Shown here: positions 6,144 to 59,501 of the stretch, piece after piece | Position numbering within the stretch: position 1 is the stretch's first letter | Layout of the letters: each line of letters begins with the position of its first letter | NCBI GenBank assembly: GCA_905234555.1 | Contig: CAJOHO010000002.1 | Span: 16,685 to 80,684, forward strand | Direction of reading: 5' to 3' | Length of the DNA: 64,000 nt | From: an uncultured Bacteroidaceae bacterium | Lineage (GTDB): Bacteria; Bacteroidota; Bacteroidia; Bacteroidales; Bacteroidaceae | Program-made: the position numbers and the translations under genes | The notes under the pieces: generated by a model | Databases searched by the model: none | Told to the model about the DNA's origin: nothing | What the model saw: only the letters and a program-made list of their open reading frames with translations

Positions 6144-7454
6144 ATGAAAAAGATTTATAAAGCTCATATCCTCTATACGAAGGAGAAAAACCATTTTGAA
6201 GTACTTGAAAACGGTTATCTGGCAGTCGATGCCGACGGCTGTGTGACTGGAGTGGCGGCTGATTTGGCTTCGCTGGACGGTGAGGATGCGGAGGTCACGG
6301 ACTTCGGCAACCGTCTGCTGATTCCTGCCATGAACGATTTGCATGTGCATGCCCCGCAGTATCGCAACCAGGGCATCGCCATGGACCTGGAACTGCTGCC
6401 GTGGCTCCAGAACTACACCTTCCCCGAGGAGAAGAAATATGCCGAAACGGCCTATGCCGAGCCGATGTACCGCCGATTCATCCATGACTTGTGGCGATTC
6501 GGCACCATGCGGAGCAGCGTCTTTGCCACCATTCATACCGAGAGTACCCGCCTCTTGATGAATCTCTTCCAGGAGGCCGGCATGGGAGCGCTGGTAGGCA
6601 AGGTGGGCATGAACCGCAACTGCCCCGAAGGCCTCTCGGAGAGTGTGGACGACATGGTCCAGGGCTATGAGGAACTTATCCACTCAACGCTCAACGCTCC
6701 GCTTGGCTCTGCCGCTTCGCTCTGCGAAAAACTCTCCACCCTCGTAACACCCATCATCACGCCCCGCTTCATCCCGTCGTGTACGTCGGAGATGCTCAGA
6801 GCCTGTGGCGAGCTGGCTGCCAAGTACCAGTTGCCCGTGCAGTCGCACCTTTCGGAGAACAAGGACGAGATAGCCTGGGTGCAGGAGCTGGAACCGGAGA
6901 GCCGCAACTACGGCGATGCCTACGACCGCTATGGACTCTTCGGACAGACACCTACCGTGATGGCTCACTGCGTATGGACCGACGGCGAAGAGCTGGAACT
7001 GATGAAACAGCGCGGGGTGATGGTGGCCCACTGTCCCACATCGAACATCAACCTGGCATCGGGTATCGCACCCATTCGCCGCTTCCTCACCGAGGGTATC
7101 CCTGTCGGACTGGGCAGCGACGTGAGTGGCGGTCACGACTTCAGCATCTTCCGCATGATGGTCTATGCCGTTCAGATGAGCAAACTGCGCTATCAGCGTG
7201 ACAAGTCGTCAGCCTTCCTCTCGTTGGCAGAAGCCTTCTGGATGGCCACGAAGTCAGGAGGCAGTTTCTTTGGTCGGGTGGGTAGCTTCGAGCCTGGCTA
7301 TGAGTTTGATGCCCTCGTCATTGACGACAGCGACTTGAACCATTCCGACTACTCGCTGCTGGAGCGTCTGGAGCGTTATGTCTATCTGGGTGACGACCGT
7401 CAGATTGTGCACCGCTTCTGCCGTGGAAAGGAAATTGCAGAGCCCAGAATCTGA
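6144..7454 (+). CDS. guaD: Guanine deaminase / amidohydrolase family
   Basis: NDLHVHAPQ, QSHLSEN, AHCVW and GLGSDVSGGHD motifs; TACTTTTG promoter element at ~6111. Confidence 0.88.
   Translation: MKKIYKAHILYTKEKNHFEVLENGYLAVDADGCVTGVAADLASLDGEDAEVTDFGNRLLIPAMNDLHVHAPQYRNQGIAMDLELLPWLQNYTFPEEKKYAETAYAEPMYRRFIHDLWRFGTMRSSVFATIHTESTRLLMNLFQEAGMGALVGKVGMNRNCPEGLSESVDDMVQGYEELIHSTLNAPLGSAASLCEKLSTLVTPIITPRFIPSCTSEMLRACGELAAKYQLPVQSHLSENKDEIAWVQELEPESRNYGDAYDRYGLFGQTPTVMAHCVWTDGEELELMKQRGVMVAHCPTSNINLASGIAPIRRFLTEGIPVGLGSDVSGGHDFSIFRMMVYAVQMSKLRYQRDKSSAFLSLAEAFWMATKSGGSFFGRVGSFEPGYEFDALVIDDSDLNHSDYSLLERLERYVYLGDDRQIVHRFCRGKEIAEPRI
6681..6744 (+). repeat. Heptad-flanked palindromic cassette inside the guanine deaminase gene
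   Basis: ctcaacg ctcaacg ctccgct tggctctgccg cttcgctctgcgaaaaactctccaccctcg. Confidence 0.6.
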
Positions 7455-8098: not shown

Positions 8099-8148
8099 TT
8101 AAATAGTAAAATAGTAAAATAGGTTAGATTGTAAATTGTTTTTTTATT

Positions 8149-10782: not shown

Positions 10783-10820
10783 AAAAAGAAAAGGCTGCGA
10801 TGAAGCAGCCTTTTCTTTTT
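10783..10820. terminator. Bidirectional intrinsic terminator between rpiB and rny
   Basis: aaaaagaaaaggctgc gatgaa gcagccttttcttttt, perfect stem with A- and T-tracts. Confidence 0.92.
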
Positions 10821-10821
10821 T

Positions 10822-10842
10822 ATCACTTATCACTTATCACTT
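10822..10842. repeat. Heptad array (ATCACTT)x3
   Basis: Exact 7-bp tandem repeat reaching the rny stop codon. Confidence 0.85.
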
Positions 10843-12379
10843 ACTTCGCGTAAGCCACTGAGCGCGTTTCGCGGATAACGGTAATCTTCACCTGACCAGG
10901 ATAGGTCATCTCCGTCTGGATCTTGTTGGCAATCTCGCCAGAGAGTGCCTCCGTCTCAGCATCGTCCATCTTGTCGGCACCGACGATGACACGCAGCTCA
11001 CGACCAGCCTGAATGGCGTAGGTCTTGGTCACGCCAGGATAGGACATTGCGATGGCCTCAAGGTCGTTCAGACGCTTGATGTAAGCCTCTACAATCTCAC
11101 GACGGGCACCAGGACGGGCACCAGAGATGGCGTCACAAACCTGTACGATAGGAGCGAGCAGCGTCTGCATCTCCATTTCGTCGTGGTGGGCACCGATGGC
11201 ATTGCAGATATCGGGCTTCTCCTTGAACTTCTCTGCAAGCTTGGCACCATAGATAGCGTGGGGCAGTTCAGACTCCTCATCGGGCACCTTGCCGATGTCG
11301 TGGAGCAATCCGGCACGCTTGGCTTTCTTGGGATTCAAACCGAGTTCAGCAGCCATGACTGAGCAGAGGTTGGCCGTTTCGCGGGCATGCTGCAACAGGT
11401 TCTGGCCGTAGGAAGAGCGGTACTTCATCTTACCAATCATGCGGATAAGCTCAGGATGAAGTCCGTGTACGCCGAGGTCGATAGCCGTGCGCTTACCTAT
11501 CTCGATAACCTCGTTCTCCAGCTGTTTCTTCACCTTAGCAACCACTTCCTCGATGCGTGCGGGGTGGATACGACCGTCGGCCACCAGCTGGTGGAGTGCC
11601 AGACGGCAAGTCTCACGGCGAATGGGGTCGAAGGCAGAGATAACGATGGCCTCGGGGGTGTCGTCAACAACGATTTCCACACCGCAGGCAGCTTCCAGAG
11701 CACGAATGTTACGTCCTTCACGTCCGATGACGCGTCCCTTCACATCGTCGTTGTCAATGTGGAACACGCTGACGGAGTTCTCGACGGCCGTCTCAGTGGC
11801 TACGCGCTGAATGGTCTGAATGACAATCTTCTTGGCCTGAGCATTGGCGTTGAGCTTCGCCTCGTCCATGATTTCGTTGATGTAGCTCTGAGCATCGGTC
11901 TTCGCCTCGTCCTTCATGGCTTCCACCAGTCGGGTCTTGGCTTCCTCGGCACTGAGTCCAGAGAGCTCTTCGAGTTTGGCACGTTCCTGCAGCTGCATCT
12001 TTTCCAGTTCCTCGTGCTTGATGGCGAGCATTTTCTTCTCGTTGTCAATGCGGTTCTGCTGGTTGTCGAGGTCATTCTTGCGGCGTCCCAGCTCTTCCTG
12101 ACGCTGATTGAGAGACATCTCACGCTGCTTCAGCCGGTTCTCGTTCTGCTGGATGTGCTGGTTGCGCTGCTGCACTTCCTTTTCTAACTCGCTCTTTTTG
12201 TTCAGGAACTTCTCCTTTACTTCGAGCAATTTCTTCTCTTTGATGACTTCCGCTTCCTTGTTGGCAGCATCGATCATCTGATTATATTTTCCCTTAACTA
12301 CGTAACGGAAAACCAAGTAGCCTACGGCGACACCCAAAATGAGTGCCACAACAATGGCTATAATCGTAAGTAAATCCAT
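10841..12379 (-). CDS. rny: Ribonuclease Y
   Basis: N-terminal TM, coiled coil, KH domain ([15 protein letters not shown]), HD domain (GLLHDIGK). Confidence 0.95.
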
Positions 12380-13947: not shown

Positions 13948-13975
13948 ATTCTTCATTCTTCATTCTTCATTCTTC
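13948..13975. repeat. Heptad array (ATTCTTC)x4 upstream of rfbA
   Basis: Exact 7-bp tandem repeat; TACCTTTG -7 at 13988-13995. Confidence 0.9.
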
Positions 13976-14018
13976 ACTAAAAATTACTACCTTTGCAGCC
14001 TGAATATAACGTTATATC

Positions 14019-21473: not shown

Positions 21474-21663
21474 TTTTAATTCAGGCAGTACGACACGCAG
21501 GTGTTGTCGGCCATTCTTGCCACGCGATAAGTGTGGGCAAATTCCTTAATCAGTCTCAGGGTTTTCTCACTGGGTCTAAATACGTCGGGGGTAAAATAAT
21601 TCATAGGCAAACCTTTTTTGTTAATTACTATATACCTAACGTATAAAGATGCGATTTATTATA

Positions 21664-22656
21664 TTATCTGACCGAATATTTTTCAATATTTTTTATCCCA
21701 TTCAGAAAATCGTTTGCGGGCATTCTTTTCTTTCCCGCCAGCTGCAGTTCGTCAATCGTCAGTTCCGTTCCTTCGCCAGCAGGAAAGGTGAGGGTGGAGG
21801 GCTCTTTGCTGTGCAAAGCGGCAGAGCCGAGCGGATGGTGGAGGGTGGAGGATGGAGTGACGTGCGCCTTGTAGATTTTCAGCATCGTCTCCTTGCCGTC
21901 GGGAGCCACCAGCATGGTCCACGCTCCTGGGATGGGTGACAGTCCCCTGATGAAGTTGCGGATATCCTCTGCGGGCCGTGACCAGTCAATGCGGCAATTC
22001 TCCTTGAACAGCTTGGGGGCCGGCTTTAGCACTTGTCCCGCAGTCATCAGTTGCTTCTGGGGAATGCTGACGGGGGAACCGTCAGCTGCGATGATGCGCT
22101 CCAGCGTTTCCAGGCAGATGTCTGCACCTAACTGCATCAGTCCGTCATAGACATACTCCACGTCTGCATCCGATGGGATGTCGAATGTCTTCTGCAGAAT
22201 GATGCGTCCCGTATCAATGTCGTGGTCGAGGAAGAAGGTTGTGACACCCGTCTGCTTCTCACCGTTGATAATGGCCCAGTTGATGGGTGCAGCACCTCGG
22301 TATTGCGGCAACAGGGCAGCATGAACGTTGAATGTCCCGTATTCGGGCATAGCCCACACCACCTCTGGCAGCATGCGGAAGGCCACTACCACTTGCAGGT
22401 TGGCCCCAAAAGAGCGCAACTCCTCCACAAACTCCGGGTCTTTCATCTTCTCCGGCTGCAAAACGGGAAGTCCTACGGACAAGGCATATTGCTTTACTTG
22501 TGATGGTTGGAGCACGCTGCCATGACGGCCTACGGGCCGGTCGGGTTGGGTGACTACGGCCACTACCTTGTAGCCGTTCTCAATTATTGCTTTCAGGGTG
22601 GGCACCGCAAACTCCGGTGTTCCCATAAACACAATTCGCAAATCACTCTTTTTCAT
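21664..22656 (-). CDS. fmt: Methionyl-tRNA formyltransferase
   Basis: RIVFMGTPEFAVPTL, NVHAALLPQYRGAAPINWAI; 330 aa. Confidence 0.95.
   Translation of the reverse strand: MKKSDLRIVFMGTPEFAVPTLKAIIENGYKVVAVVTQPDRPVGRHGSVLQPSQVKQYALSVGLPVLQPEKMKDPEFVEELRSFGANLQVVVAFRMLPEVVWAMPEYGTFNVHAALLPQYRGAAPINWAIINGEKQTGVTTFFLDHDIDTGRIILQKTFDIPSDADVEYVYDGLMQLGADICLETLERIIAADGSPVSIPQKQLMTAGQVLKPAPKLFKENCRIDWSRPAEDIRNFIRGLSPIPGAWTMLVAPDGKETMLKIYKAHVTPSSTLHHPLGSAALHSKEPSTLTFPAGEGTELTIDELQLAGKKRMPANDFLNGIKNIEKYSVR
21788..21858 (-). repeat. Heptad-flanked palindromic cassette inside fmt
   Basis: minus strand: ctccatc ctccacc ctccacc atccgct cggctctgccg ctttgcacagcaaagag ccctccaccctcacc. Confidence 0.6.
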
Positions 22657-36708: not shown

Positions 36709-38455
36709 GTTGTGGTTTGATGTAGGAATAGAGAGATAAACAACACTTCACCAGACGGGGATTCGCCTTGAAGGTTGTGGTTTGATGTAGGAATAGAGAG
36801 ATAAACAACCCCTGCCCGCTCCGAGAGTTGTTCCTGTGTGTTGTGGTTTGATGTAGGAATAGAGAGATAAACAACCCCATCACGCGCTTCACCATTGCGC
36901 CCAGCGTTGTGGTTTGATGTAGGAATAGAGAGATAAACAACAGGCGTGCATCCTGAGCATCCGCAAGCACGGTTGTGGTTTGATGTAGGAATAGAGAGAT
37001 AAACAACGCCGGGCCACTACGACGCGCAAGGGCAGTAGTTGTGGTTTGATGTAGGAATAGAGAGATAAACAACATGTTTCCAGAAGGTTACACCGTTAAT
37101 TCAGTTGTGGTTTGATGTAGGAATAGAGAGATAAACAACTGGACGAACCAAACAATTCAATCCAGCGGCGTTGTGGTTTGATGTAGGAATAGAGAGATAA
37201 ACAACGACGGATGATGATCCTGACTGGCAGGCTCGTTGTGGTTTGATGTAGGAATAGAGAGATAAACAACTTGCGGCCACGGAATGAAAGTGGATATTCC
37301 GTTGTGGTTTGATGTAGGAATAGAGAGATAAACAACCAATCACTGGTATGTGGGGTGTACGTTTCGTTGTGGTTTGATGTAGGAATAGAGAGATAAACAA
37401 CGCTGGCCTGCGAAGGTCGGCGGCTCTTTTTGTTGTGGTTTGATGTAGGAATAGAGAGATAAACAACCTACAGCGGCTGCAGGTCCAATCGTTGAAGGTT
37501 GTGGTTTGATGTAGGAATAGAGAGATAAACAACATTTCAAGTCAATGCCCTATCCCGACGGCTGTTGTGGTTTGATGTAGGAATAGAGAGATAAACAACC
37601 GGCGCAGGGTGAGCAGGTCGCGGGCGAGCGTTGTGGTTTGATGTAGGAATAGAGAGATAAACAACGCTGGAGCACGCTGAAGATGAACCATTCCTGTTGT
37701 GGTTTGATGTAGGAATAGAGAGATAAACAACTCATCATCGGTGAGGAGAAGCCGGCGCAGGTTGTGGTTTGATGTAGGAATAGAGAGATAAACAACCATC
37801 AAAGACCGCCACGTTGAGCCGAGTGCGTTGTGGTTTGATGTAGGAATAGAGAGATAAACAACTGACCGCCACCTCCGAACAAATCCCCTGAAGTTGTGGT
37901 TTGATGTAGGAATAGAGAGATAAACAACGGAGAACGGCGACGAGCCGATGGCCAGCGCGTTGTGGTTTGATGTAGGAATAGAGAGATAAACAACCATCAC
38001 ATCCGCAGGGTGGCAGAAGTATTGGTTGTGGTTTGATGTAGGAATAGAGAGATAAACAACTTCATGCTGCCTCTCAACCGTGAGGCCATCGTTGTGGTTT
38101 GATGTAGGAATAGAGAGATAAACAACCTGCTCTAGATGTTGTCGCAAACTGCTATCGTTGTGGTTTGATGTAGGAATAGAGAGATAAACAACGTATTGGC
38201 AGTACCTACCAGACCGCCAAGTGTTGTGGTTTGATGTAGGAATAGAGAGATAAACAACTTCGGGGTTTATCGCCACCTTATCCTTAATGTTGTGGTTTGA
38301 TGTAGGAATAGAGAGATAAACAACATATCGTAATGAACCCGCCCTTCTCTCATGTTGTGGTTTGATGTAGGAATAGAGAGATAAACAACTCAACACCAAG
38401 CGCATTGTAATGTTCTACCGTTGTGGTTTGATGTAGGAATAGAGAGATAAACAAC
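36709..38455 (+). CRISPR. CRISPR array: 27 repeats of 36 bp and 26 spacers of 29-30 bp
   Basis: GTTGTGGTTTGATGTAGGAATAGAGAGATAAACAAC at 65/66-bp spacing, all copies read as identical; crRNA strand + from anti-repeat orientation. Confidence 0.99.
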
Positions 38456-38569
38456 GAATCAGCCACTGCCGATTATGACAGGTACCAGGTCCTTATCATA
38501 ACCAAATTTTTGGAGGAAAAAGTAGAGGAGGCCGCAGCTGTGCAGCCTAACGTATCAATTTGCTTGCTC

Positions 38570-47349: not shown

Positions 47350-47391
47350 ATTATGCATTATGAATTGTGCATTATGAATTATGCATTAAAA
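47350..47391. repeat. Heptad array ATTATGC ATTATGA ATTGTGC ATTATGA ATTATGC ATTAAAA
   Basis: Six 7-bp units ending at the aldose epimerase stop. Confidence 0.8.
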
Positions 47392-58306: not shown

Positions 58307-59434
58307 ATGAACAAACTGAAAAGATATACTTTCGCAATGGTGCTGATGGCTGCTTTCTCTACCCATGCCTCAGCACAGAAAATGGTGATCGGAAGCTACG
58401 TCTTCCCCAAAGATAACGCCTCCTACTATGGTGAACTGGCAGGAGGCAAACCCAACGGTAAAGGTAAGACCACATTCCGCAACGGAGATACCTACGAAGG
58501 CGACTACGAGAAAGGTAAGCGCCAAGGACGGGGCATCTACATCTTCTCCGACACAGGAGAGAAGTACGACGGACAGTGGTTCGAAGACCATCAGCACGGC
58601 AAGGGAACTTTCTATTTTTCCAACAACAACCGCTACGAGGGTCTTTGGTTCAAGGACTATCAGGAAGGCGAAGGCACCATGTACTACTACAACGGTGACA
58701 AGTATGTGGGCAACTGGAAAGAAGACAAACGTGAGGGTCACGGCGCTTACTATTGGGTGAACGGCATCACCTACGACGGTGAGTGGCTGGCAGACCGTAA
58801 ACACGGAAAAGGTCTGTACGACTGGCGCGACGGCAGCAGCTACTATGGTGAGTGGGCTTACGACCAGCGTAACGGACAAGGCACCTATTACTATGCCAAT
58901 GGTGACAAATACGAAGGTGCCTGGAAGAACGACATGATGGAAGGTCGTGGCATCTACACGTTCCACAACGGAGACAAATACGAAGGCGACTACTACAACG
59001 GACAGCGTACAGGGCAGGGTATCTTCACCTATGCCGACGGACGCCGCTACGTAGGTCTCTTCAAGAACGGAGTGATGTGTGGACACGGTGTCTTCACCTG
59101 GCCCGACGGTTCTGTCTATGACGGCAGCTGGCAGGAAGACAAGCAGAACGGCTTTGGAAAATATACCACCAAGGCTGGCGACACCTACGAAGGCAACTGG
59201 GTGAACGGTCTGATGGATGGTGACAACGGCATCCTGAGAATGAAGGACGGCTCGAAGTTCAAAGGCAGCTTCAAGCAGGGCATGAAGAACGGACGCGGAG
59301 TGGAAGAGGCTGCAGACGGCACTCGTTTCGAAGGCAACTACCAGAACGACGTGCGTCACGGTTCCTTTGTAGAGAAAGACCGCAACGGAAAAGTCATCCG
59401 CAAAGGCAGCTACAACCGCGGCAGACTGGAGTAA
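58307..59434 (+). CDS. MORN-repeat protein with signal peptide
   Basis: About 14 tandem Y.G.w..g...G.G.....G repeats. Confidence 0.95.
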   Translation: MNKLKRYTFAMVLMAAFSTHASAQKMVIGSYVFPKDNASYYGELAGGKPNGKGKTTFRNGDTYEGDYEKGKRQGRGIYIFSDTGEKYDGQWFEDHQHGKGTFYFSNNNRYEGLWFKDYQEGEGTMYYYNGDKYVGNWKEDKREGHGAYYWVNGITYDGEWLADRKHGKGLYDWRDGSSYYGEWAYDQRNGQGTYYYANGDKYEGAWKNDMMEGRGIYTFHNGDKYEGDYYNGQRTGQGIFTYADGRRYVGLFKNGVMCGHGVFTWPDGSVYDGSWQEDKQNGFGKYTTKAGDTYEGNWVNGLMDGDNGILRMKDGSKFKGSFKQGMKNGRGVEEAADGTRFEGNYQNDVRHGSFVEKDRNGKVIRKGSYNRGRLE

Positions 59435-59438
59435 ATTA

Positions 59439-59501
59439 AGTGAAGAGTGAAGAGTGAAGAATTCATTAAACAGGGACATTAAACTTTAAACTGTAAACGG
59501 G
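59439..59501. repeat. Heptad array (AGTGAAG)x3 AATTCAT TAAACAG GGACATT AAACTTT AAACTGT AAACGGG
   Basis: Nine 7-bp units, first three exact. Confidence 0.75.

Follow-up and report, generated by a model that had tools for sequence, protein, structure and literature searches.

A heptad-flanked segment inside the guanine deaminase gene of a Bacteroidaceae contig is very probably (we put the probability at about 0.85) one copy of a dispersed, non-autonomous, hairpin-dependent mobile repeat of Prevotellaceae-type Bacteroidales. The contig was analysed over a stretch of 64,000 nucleotides, called the window below.

Results

The window holds two copies of the repeat, in two unrelated genes. The guanine deaminase copy lies at 6681-6743 on the forward strand, within an open reading frame (6144-7454, forward) that Pfam assigns to the amidohydrolase family (Amidohydro_1, PF01979) and whose best solved relative is 2i9u (E 2.6e-140). 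The segment reads CACTC AACGCTC AACGCTC CGCTTGGCTCTGCCGCTTCGCTCTGCGAAA AACTCTC CACCCTC and encodes HSTLNAPLGSAASLCEKLSTL, confirming the original prediction of a heptad cassette in frame in this gene. That prediction treated the whole segment as one palindromic heptad cassette; the repeat is indeed palindromic, but the repeated unit comprises only the 30 nt at 6700-6729, matched by a covariance model and read as PLGSAASLCE in the guanine deaminase frame. The remainder consists of flanking heptads, recognised from the sequence together with a period-7 test of the flanks on the left (6681-6699) and the register between left and right heptads on the right (6730-6743). The right heptads begin with AAC, a triplet that nearly always stands directly 3' of the unit. 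A related cassette had also been proposed in the methionyl-tRNA formyltransferase gene fmt (21664-22656, reverse strand; Pfam Formyl_trans_N and Formyl_trans_C), and we find it there: the guanine deaminase segment matches 21790-21850 on the reverse strand over 61 nt at 79% identity, with E=3.8e-8 against the whole genome, and because the host genes are unrelated, chance is excluded as the source of this likeness. In fmt the unit, CGCTCGGCTCTGCCGCTTTGCACAGCAAAG, occupies 21804-21833 in the same reading frame as in guanine deaminase, with CACTC CATCCTC CACCCTC CACCATC on its 5' side (21834-21859) and AGCCCTC CACCCTC on its 3' side (21790-21803), all on the reverse strand. The triplet 3' of this copy is AGC in the window and AAC in the near twin Prevotella sp. 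RUI127 (heptad AACCCTC). The covariance model R1 matches the two copies at 6700-6732 (53.7 bits) and 21833-21801 (50.8 bits); the next-best match in the window scores 11.5 bits, and all others fall below 12.

The unit has a constrained structure and a nearly invariant length. Aligned copies give the consensus CGCTYGGCTYTGCCG-CTTNG-N5-CNAAG followed by AA(C/T), in which an unpaired CGCT precedes hairpins of 4 bp (CGGC-NNN-GCCG) and 5 bp (CTTNG-N5-CNAAG), and single-strand folding yields the two hairpins side by side. An alignment of 129 model matches (81 distinct rows) retains 98.3% of pairs, where slid controls retain 16-51%, and the stems carry 42 two-sided changes; the fourth pair of the second stem alone is CG in 35 cases, GC in 27, UA in 10 and AU in 2. 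The 129-match alignment is fitted to the structure, but compensatory variation of that fourth pair is also seen in the small ungapped seed alignment. The model itself was built from ungapped 33-mers, MAFFT having misplaced the variable hairpin loop, and includes the AAC positions; copies picked by their first 21 nt alone nearly all continue with AAC or AAT. The length is exactly 30 nt in 148 of 156 copies with distinct flanks, in coding and noncoding copies alike, so that preservation of frame follows from the length of the unit. In 40 of the 62 distinct units none of the six frames contains a stop, compared with 32% of shuffled units, and these stop-free frames owe something to base composition. 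Since the unit measures ten codons and is usually free of stops in every frame, a gene can remain readable after receiving it in either orientation. A search of six unit-carrying loci against Rfam returned only tRNAs above the gathering threshold, and no family for the unit.

Most copies are intergenic. About 20 of the 105 model matches examined fall in genes that Pfam or clear homology identifies, and the carriers are diverse: guanine deaminase, fmt, GH3, GH2, GH115/GH43, DUF6016, DUF418, CcsA, a LytTR regulator, QueA, an NRPS adenylation domain, A2M, TldD, an AsmA-like protein, an M23 peptidase linker, Vsr, RHS and others. These coding copies occur in both orientations and in at least four frames, giving peptides such as PLGSAASLCEEL and RSALPLRSAKN in the sense direction and FFDERSGRAER and SSTSEAAKPSA in the opposite one.

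In guanine deaminase, the unit sits in a loop that differs from homologue to homologue. The loop between LI and VRPII usually has 16 residues among 80 distinct orthologous loops (the window counted, RUI127 left out) and 28 in the window, as in RUI127 (L005); loop length ranges from 14 to 35 residues, and 21 of the 80 loops have at least 22. Alignment with 2i9u leaves a 12-residue gap at the insert, and an AlphaFold2 model of the enzyme (pTM 0.87; best PDB match 2i9u, TM 0.90) puts the insert in a disordered loop (residues 184-200) that connects helix 168-183 to strand 201-207, with pLDDT below 50 at 191-197. Several long loops are plainly built from other 7-bp repeats (GTTCAAC/T in L078, ATCACCC in L081, ACCTCTC in L029, AATTGTC in L077, CTCCTGA/T in L014), and the mean self-similarity of long loops peaks at lags 7 (0.388) and 14 (0.381), compared with 0.247 elsewhere in the same genes. 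The long repeat-built loops, the gap against 2i9u and the low-pLDDT loop together indicate that this position tolerates repeat insertions. Both window copies add length, one to this disordered loop and the other to part of the C-terminal domain of Fmt.

These results support the original prediction of a mobile repeat that keeps the reading frame: the unit lies in frame in some 20 protein families, in other genomes as well, and is absent from homologues. As had been anticipated for guanine deaminase, the segment is missing from the usual 16-residue loop and falls in a loop between a helix and a strand; it is not conserved as part of the fold in all homologues. Going beyond that prediction are the exact size of 30 nt, entry 5' of AA(C/T), the use of both strands and several frames, and the mostly intergenic location of copies.

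Other palindromic segments share the guanine deaminase loop. Of the orthologues L056 and L061, only one carries a different palindromic stretch, exactly 33 nt in length, around CTTGGCTTTCCCCTTCGGGTCGCCGAGCTGAAC; its reverse complement contains GCTCGGC and ends near CCAAG, and it is perhaps a cousin of the 30-nt unit. Further palindromic inserts, of the GAGACGTTTC type and the CTCCCC/GGGGAGG type, occur in L011, L057, L064, L068, L073 and L083. Among the loci examined, there are clear further copies of the L064-type palindrome and of L061-type heptads, and no second copies of L057, L068, L076 and other loop palindromes.

Empty and filled sites define the boundaries of the unit. The dispersed noncoding repeat at L053 has the sequence CCTGAGC|AACTTTTTGTTGCTCAGG and forms a perfect 10-bp hairpin; at the equivalent bond, CCTGAGC/AAC, nine of ten related repeats carry the 30-nt unit and one (L138) a 29-nt version, which breaks up the hairpin. 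The empty L053 site and the filled ones belong to one repeat family and are not orthologous loci in the strict sense. The TldD protein of genome G045 has ten extra residues, FDERSGRAER, that are absent from all 17 orthologues in the genus, and removing 30 nt from its gene restores a segment as long as in the orthologues. An RHS gene carries the unit between SPD and NYVQ, and in the GH3 gene of G201 it lies inside an insert of 16 residues that neither 11 homologues nor solved structures possess. All four cases (L053, TldD, RHS, GH3) agree on a 30-nt unit, on a target neither duplicated nor lost, and on AA(C/T) belonging to the target rather than to the unit. These comparisons show the unit to be present by exact 30-nt insertion just 5' of AA(C/T), or 3' of GTT/ATT on the other strand. 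Within species, we found no presence/absence difference, both window copies being common to RUI127, and no transposition was observed.

The noncoding repeat to which L053 belongs is about 120-250 bp long, with the form GCAACACTAAG...CCTGAGC...GCTCAGG...GTTGCGGAATT, and is conserved in several genera. Its members (L138, L209, L214, L215, L217, L223, L272, L273, L274, L337 and L053) mostly carry the unit, and transposase-like ORFs adjoin this IS-like repeat in some loci. Larger hairpins of the GGGGCACAAA...CGTCCCCTTTGTGCCCC type, which resemble a further REP family, enclose the unit at L276, L278 and L137.

The heptads that flank the window copies reflect a general association. Among 156 copies with distinct flanks, the 7-mers to the left and right of the unit match at offset 0 only, with a mean of 3.49 positions against 1.7-2.2 at other offsets and 2.71 (sd 0.07) after shuffling; 62 of these copies match at five or more of seven positions, where shuffling gives a mean of 21 and a maximum of 32. 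Their flanks are periodic at 7 and at no other lag, and within arrays the unit stands in register with AA(C/T)NNNN heptads. The simplest reading is that AA(C/T) is the target, which AA(C/T)NNNN arrays present once every seven bases. The heptads are repeats in their own right and provide the unit with a preferred context for landing. Unit plus heptad (37 nt) recurs in tandem at L192 and L260. Comparison with RUI127 reveals a 7-bp array indel at 21476 and a 16-bp one at 8108, sequence differences which indicate that heptad arrays change by whole units within the species. Period-7 runs number 56 in 464 kb of the assembly that contains the window (G000), compared with 0-9 for other periods except 14.

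Heptads are also the dominant tandem repeat of the window, where arrays lacking the unit (TTATCAC, ATTCTTC and others) lie at 10820-10843, 13948-13976, 47350-47388 and 59439-59460. Other repeats in the window are a CRISPR-like array at 36709-38469, with 27 copies of GTTGTGGTTTGATGTAGGAATAGAGAGATAAACAAC spaced by 65-66 bases, and MORN-like tandem repeats (NGDKYEGDW) in one coding region at 58471-59207.

The unit is widespread and patchily distributed between related genomes, most of those compared being metagenome-assembled. Its 21-nt core occurs in 12 of 301 family genomes, with up to 38 copies in one, and a reversed-pattern control gave no match in the same 301. The covariance model matches at E<=0.01 in 212 of 399 family genomes and 26 of 30 genera; about 17 candidates were scored per genome, making copy counts lower bounds, and E-values come from a short, rough calibration that leaves the weak matches among the 212 uncertain. 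When more candidates were scored, some rumen genomes proved to hold 40-84 copies (RUI127 69, G013 64, G015 84, G016 79, G018 63), and the unit was absent from 2 of 23 genomes. G000 has three copies, two of them on the window contig, and no copy of the core was found in 12 genomes of its genus. The same-genus search is misleading, since the window contig seems misbinned. The assembly looks chimeric, as its two fmt genes differ in affinity: that of the window (contig C2) is 79% identical to that of G013 and 54-58% to those of same-genus genomes, whereas a second fmt (contig C26) is 68-81% identical to the latter. Given these two affinities, and DNA identity of 97-98% to RUI127 with the assembly's own genus less alike, the window contig is probably a misbinned contig from an RUI127-like Prevotella. 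On three rumen viral contigs (L393, L394, L397) the unit lies in frame in ORFs, one of them of 702 aa. A search for named plasmid or phage carriers with a 33-nt query returned only chance-level plasmid matches and three weak Microviridae matches (best E=0.03).

Discussion

The comparisons of sites show insertion of exactly 30 nt immediately 5' of AA(C/T), a target neither duplicated nor lost, and we propose that heptad arrays, with one AA(C/T) every seven bases, serve as landing places. Copies that enter protein loops would be tolerated and kept by drift, with no need for a function of the encoded peptide. With less assurance, we suggest that, like REP or IS200/IS605 elements, the unit may move as a single-stranded hairpin, and that carriage in IS-like repeats and viral contigs, both plausible vehicles between genomes, may account for part of its spread. 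IS200/IS605 elements leave no target duplication. Together with RAYT-mobilised REPs they resemble the unit in bearing hairpins, in a strand-asymmetric, one-sided target and in the lack of duplication. Mobilisation of such a hairpin by an enzyme acting in trans has, by our estimate, slightly less than an even chance of being correct. The Y1 transposase family (PF01797) is present in carriers G244, G201 and G268 and weakly in G045; it was not detected in carriers G000, G308 and G304, drafts in which absence is not absolute, and no transposase flanking the unit was found. The unit differs in both respects from RAYT-associated REPs, a REP-type enzyme is left without support from co-occurrence, and involvement of a RAYT is not supported. 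Insertion of the integron attC type, at AA|C, was also considered and set aside: the left flank lacks a terminal AA, position -2 being T in 61% of cases.

Spread could instead be passive, through template switching, slippage or recombination between heptads or short homologies, with hairpins doing no more than stalling replication forks. The lack of any transposase association would fit such a process, as would the 7-bp and 16-bp indels by which arrays vary within species, the register of unit and heptads, and the 37-nt tandems; we nonetheless consider it rather unlikely, since copies at heptad-free sites (TldD, RHS, the IS-like hairpin) keep the same precise 30-nt bounds and right-hand AAC, an indication of a defined cleavage site. 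A cis-acting RNA or DNA signal, such as a terminator, a transcript-end hairpin or a protein-binding site, selected between genes and intragenic by accident, would explain why structure is kept by compensatory changes, even at the one shared IS-like site, and the empty Rfam result in six loci would make its role an undescribed one. Patchiness among related genomes, the variety of contexts and the lack of a regular T run after the hairpin render this improbable.

Explanations at the level of protein fare worse. Several coding copies each encode RSALPLRSAKN, FFDERSGRAER or SSTSEAAKPSA, as might be expected had a ten-residue linker or module spread by being useful; yet both orientations and several frames yield unrelated peptides in unrelated proteins, copies are mostly intergenic and conservation tracks the hairpin, so we regard selection for a peptide as highly improbable. 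Ordinary length variation of the guanine deaminase loop, with the likeness to fmt arising by chance, could appeal to the range of 14 to 35 residues among orthologues, but its probability is negligible: the fmt match at E=3.8e-8, the two window matches above 50 bits with all others below 12, and the dozens of copies per genome in relatives already refute it. The reading we favour remains that of a mobile hairpin repeat.

The unit has functional parallels among known repeats. Rickettsia palindromic elements (RPEs; Ogata 2000), of about 150 bp in an obligate intracellular alphaproteobacterium, are dispersed palindromic repeats found in frame in many unrelated protein genes and inferred to be selfish (PMC10969869). 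Like them, the unit is a dispersed palindromic DNA repeat that lies in frame in unrelated genes and is absent from orthologues; unlike them, it has 30 nt and two small hairpins, a gut and rumen Bacteroidales host range, a fixed AA(C/T) on the right and a heptad context. Given the difference in size, the likeness is one of mode of working. GTAG and CGTC REPs are 20-40 bp long, palindromic, of high copy number and mostly intergenic with some intragenic copies, and CGTC repeats, which have no known transposase, occur in Bacteroidetes among other phyla (PMC3733652). The unit resembles both in size, palindromes, copy number and siting, but its sense strand opens with CGCT and closes with CNAAG, and its other strand opens with CTTNG, so that neither tag marks an end; the distinction is drawn on these end tags. 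Heptamer direct repeats such as TAACTGA form 7-bp tandem arrays that are mainly intergenic, include Bacteroidetes examples and are suspected of horizontal spread (PMC4679880). Tandem 7-bp arrays of this STRR type describe our flanks and not the unit: cyanobacterial STRR or heptamer repeats are heptads alone, whereas here the heptads are AA(C/T)NNNN, and a distinct hairpin unit is lodged where they meet. MITEs and PARCELs are further non-autonomous palindromic repeats that may add coding sequence (PMC10969869, PMC2996958). In contrast to MITEs, the unit lacks terminal inverted repeats with target duplication (the difference at L053 and TldD is exactly 30 nt), and, unlike a PARCEL, it is no 25-residue tandem protein repeat. 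Since the unit lacks both REP end tags, the RAYT association and the target duplication of MITEs, we judge it to be an element that works like an RPE or a REP rather than a member of either class.

We found no paper in the open literature that describes the unit sequence, which does not prove that none exists. We tentatively suggest, as a possibility that we hold at somewhat under one in two, that it may represent a new class of minimal element: a double hairpin of 30 nt, and thus a whole number of codons, that would be inserted strand-specifically at AA(C/T) without duplication by an undescribed Bacteroidales enzyme, would use heptad arrays as landing pads, and would repeatedly have added ten residues to functional proteins.

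So far, Rickettsia and some REP-rich genomes have supplied most of the known in-frame selfish repeats. The family described here has a fixed size and an observed empty site, is plentiful in common bacteria of the gut and rumen, and occurs within about 20 families of enzymes and other proteins. Annotators and structure modellers should be aware that such ten-residue inserts are DNA repeats. The many empty and filled alleles offer a route to finding the mobilising enzyme, and the family makes it possible to measure how mobile DNA supplies proteins with short insertions, and to test this in culturable relatives.
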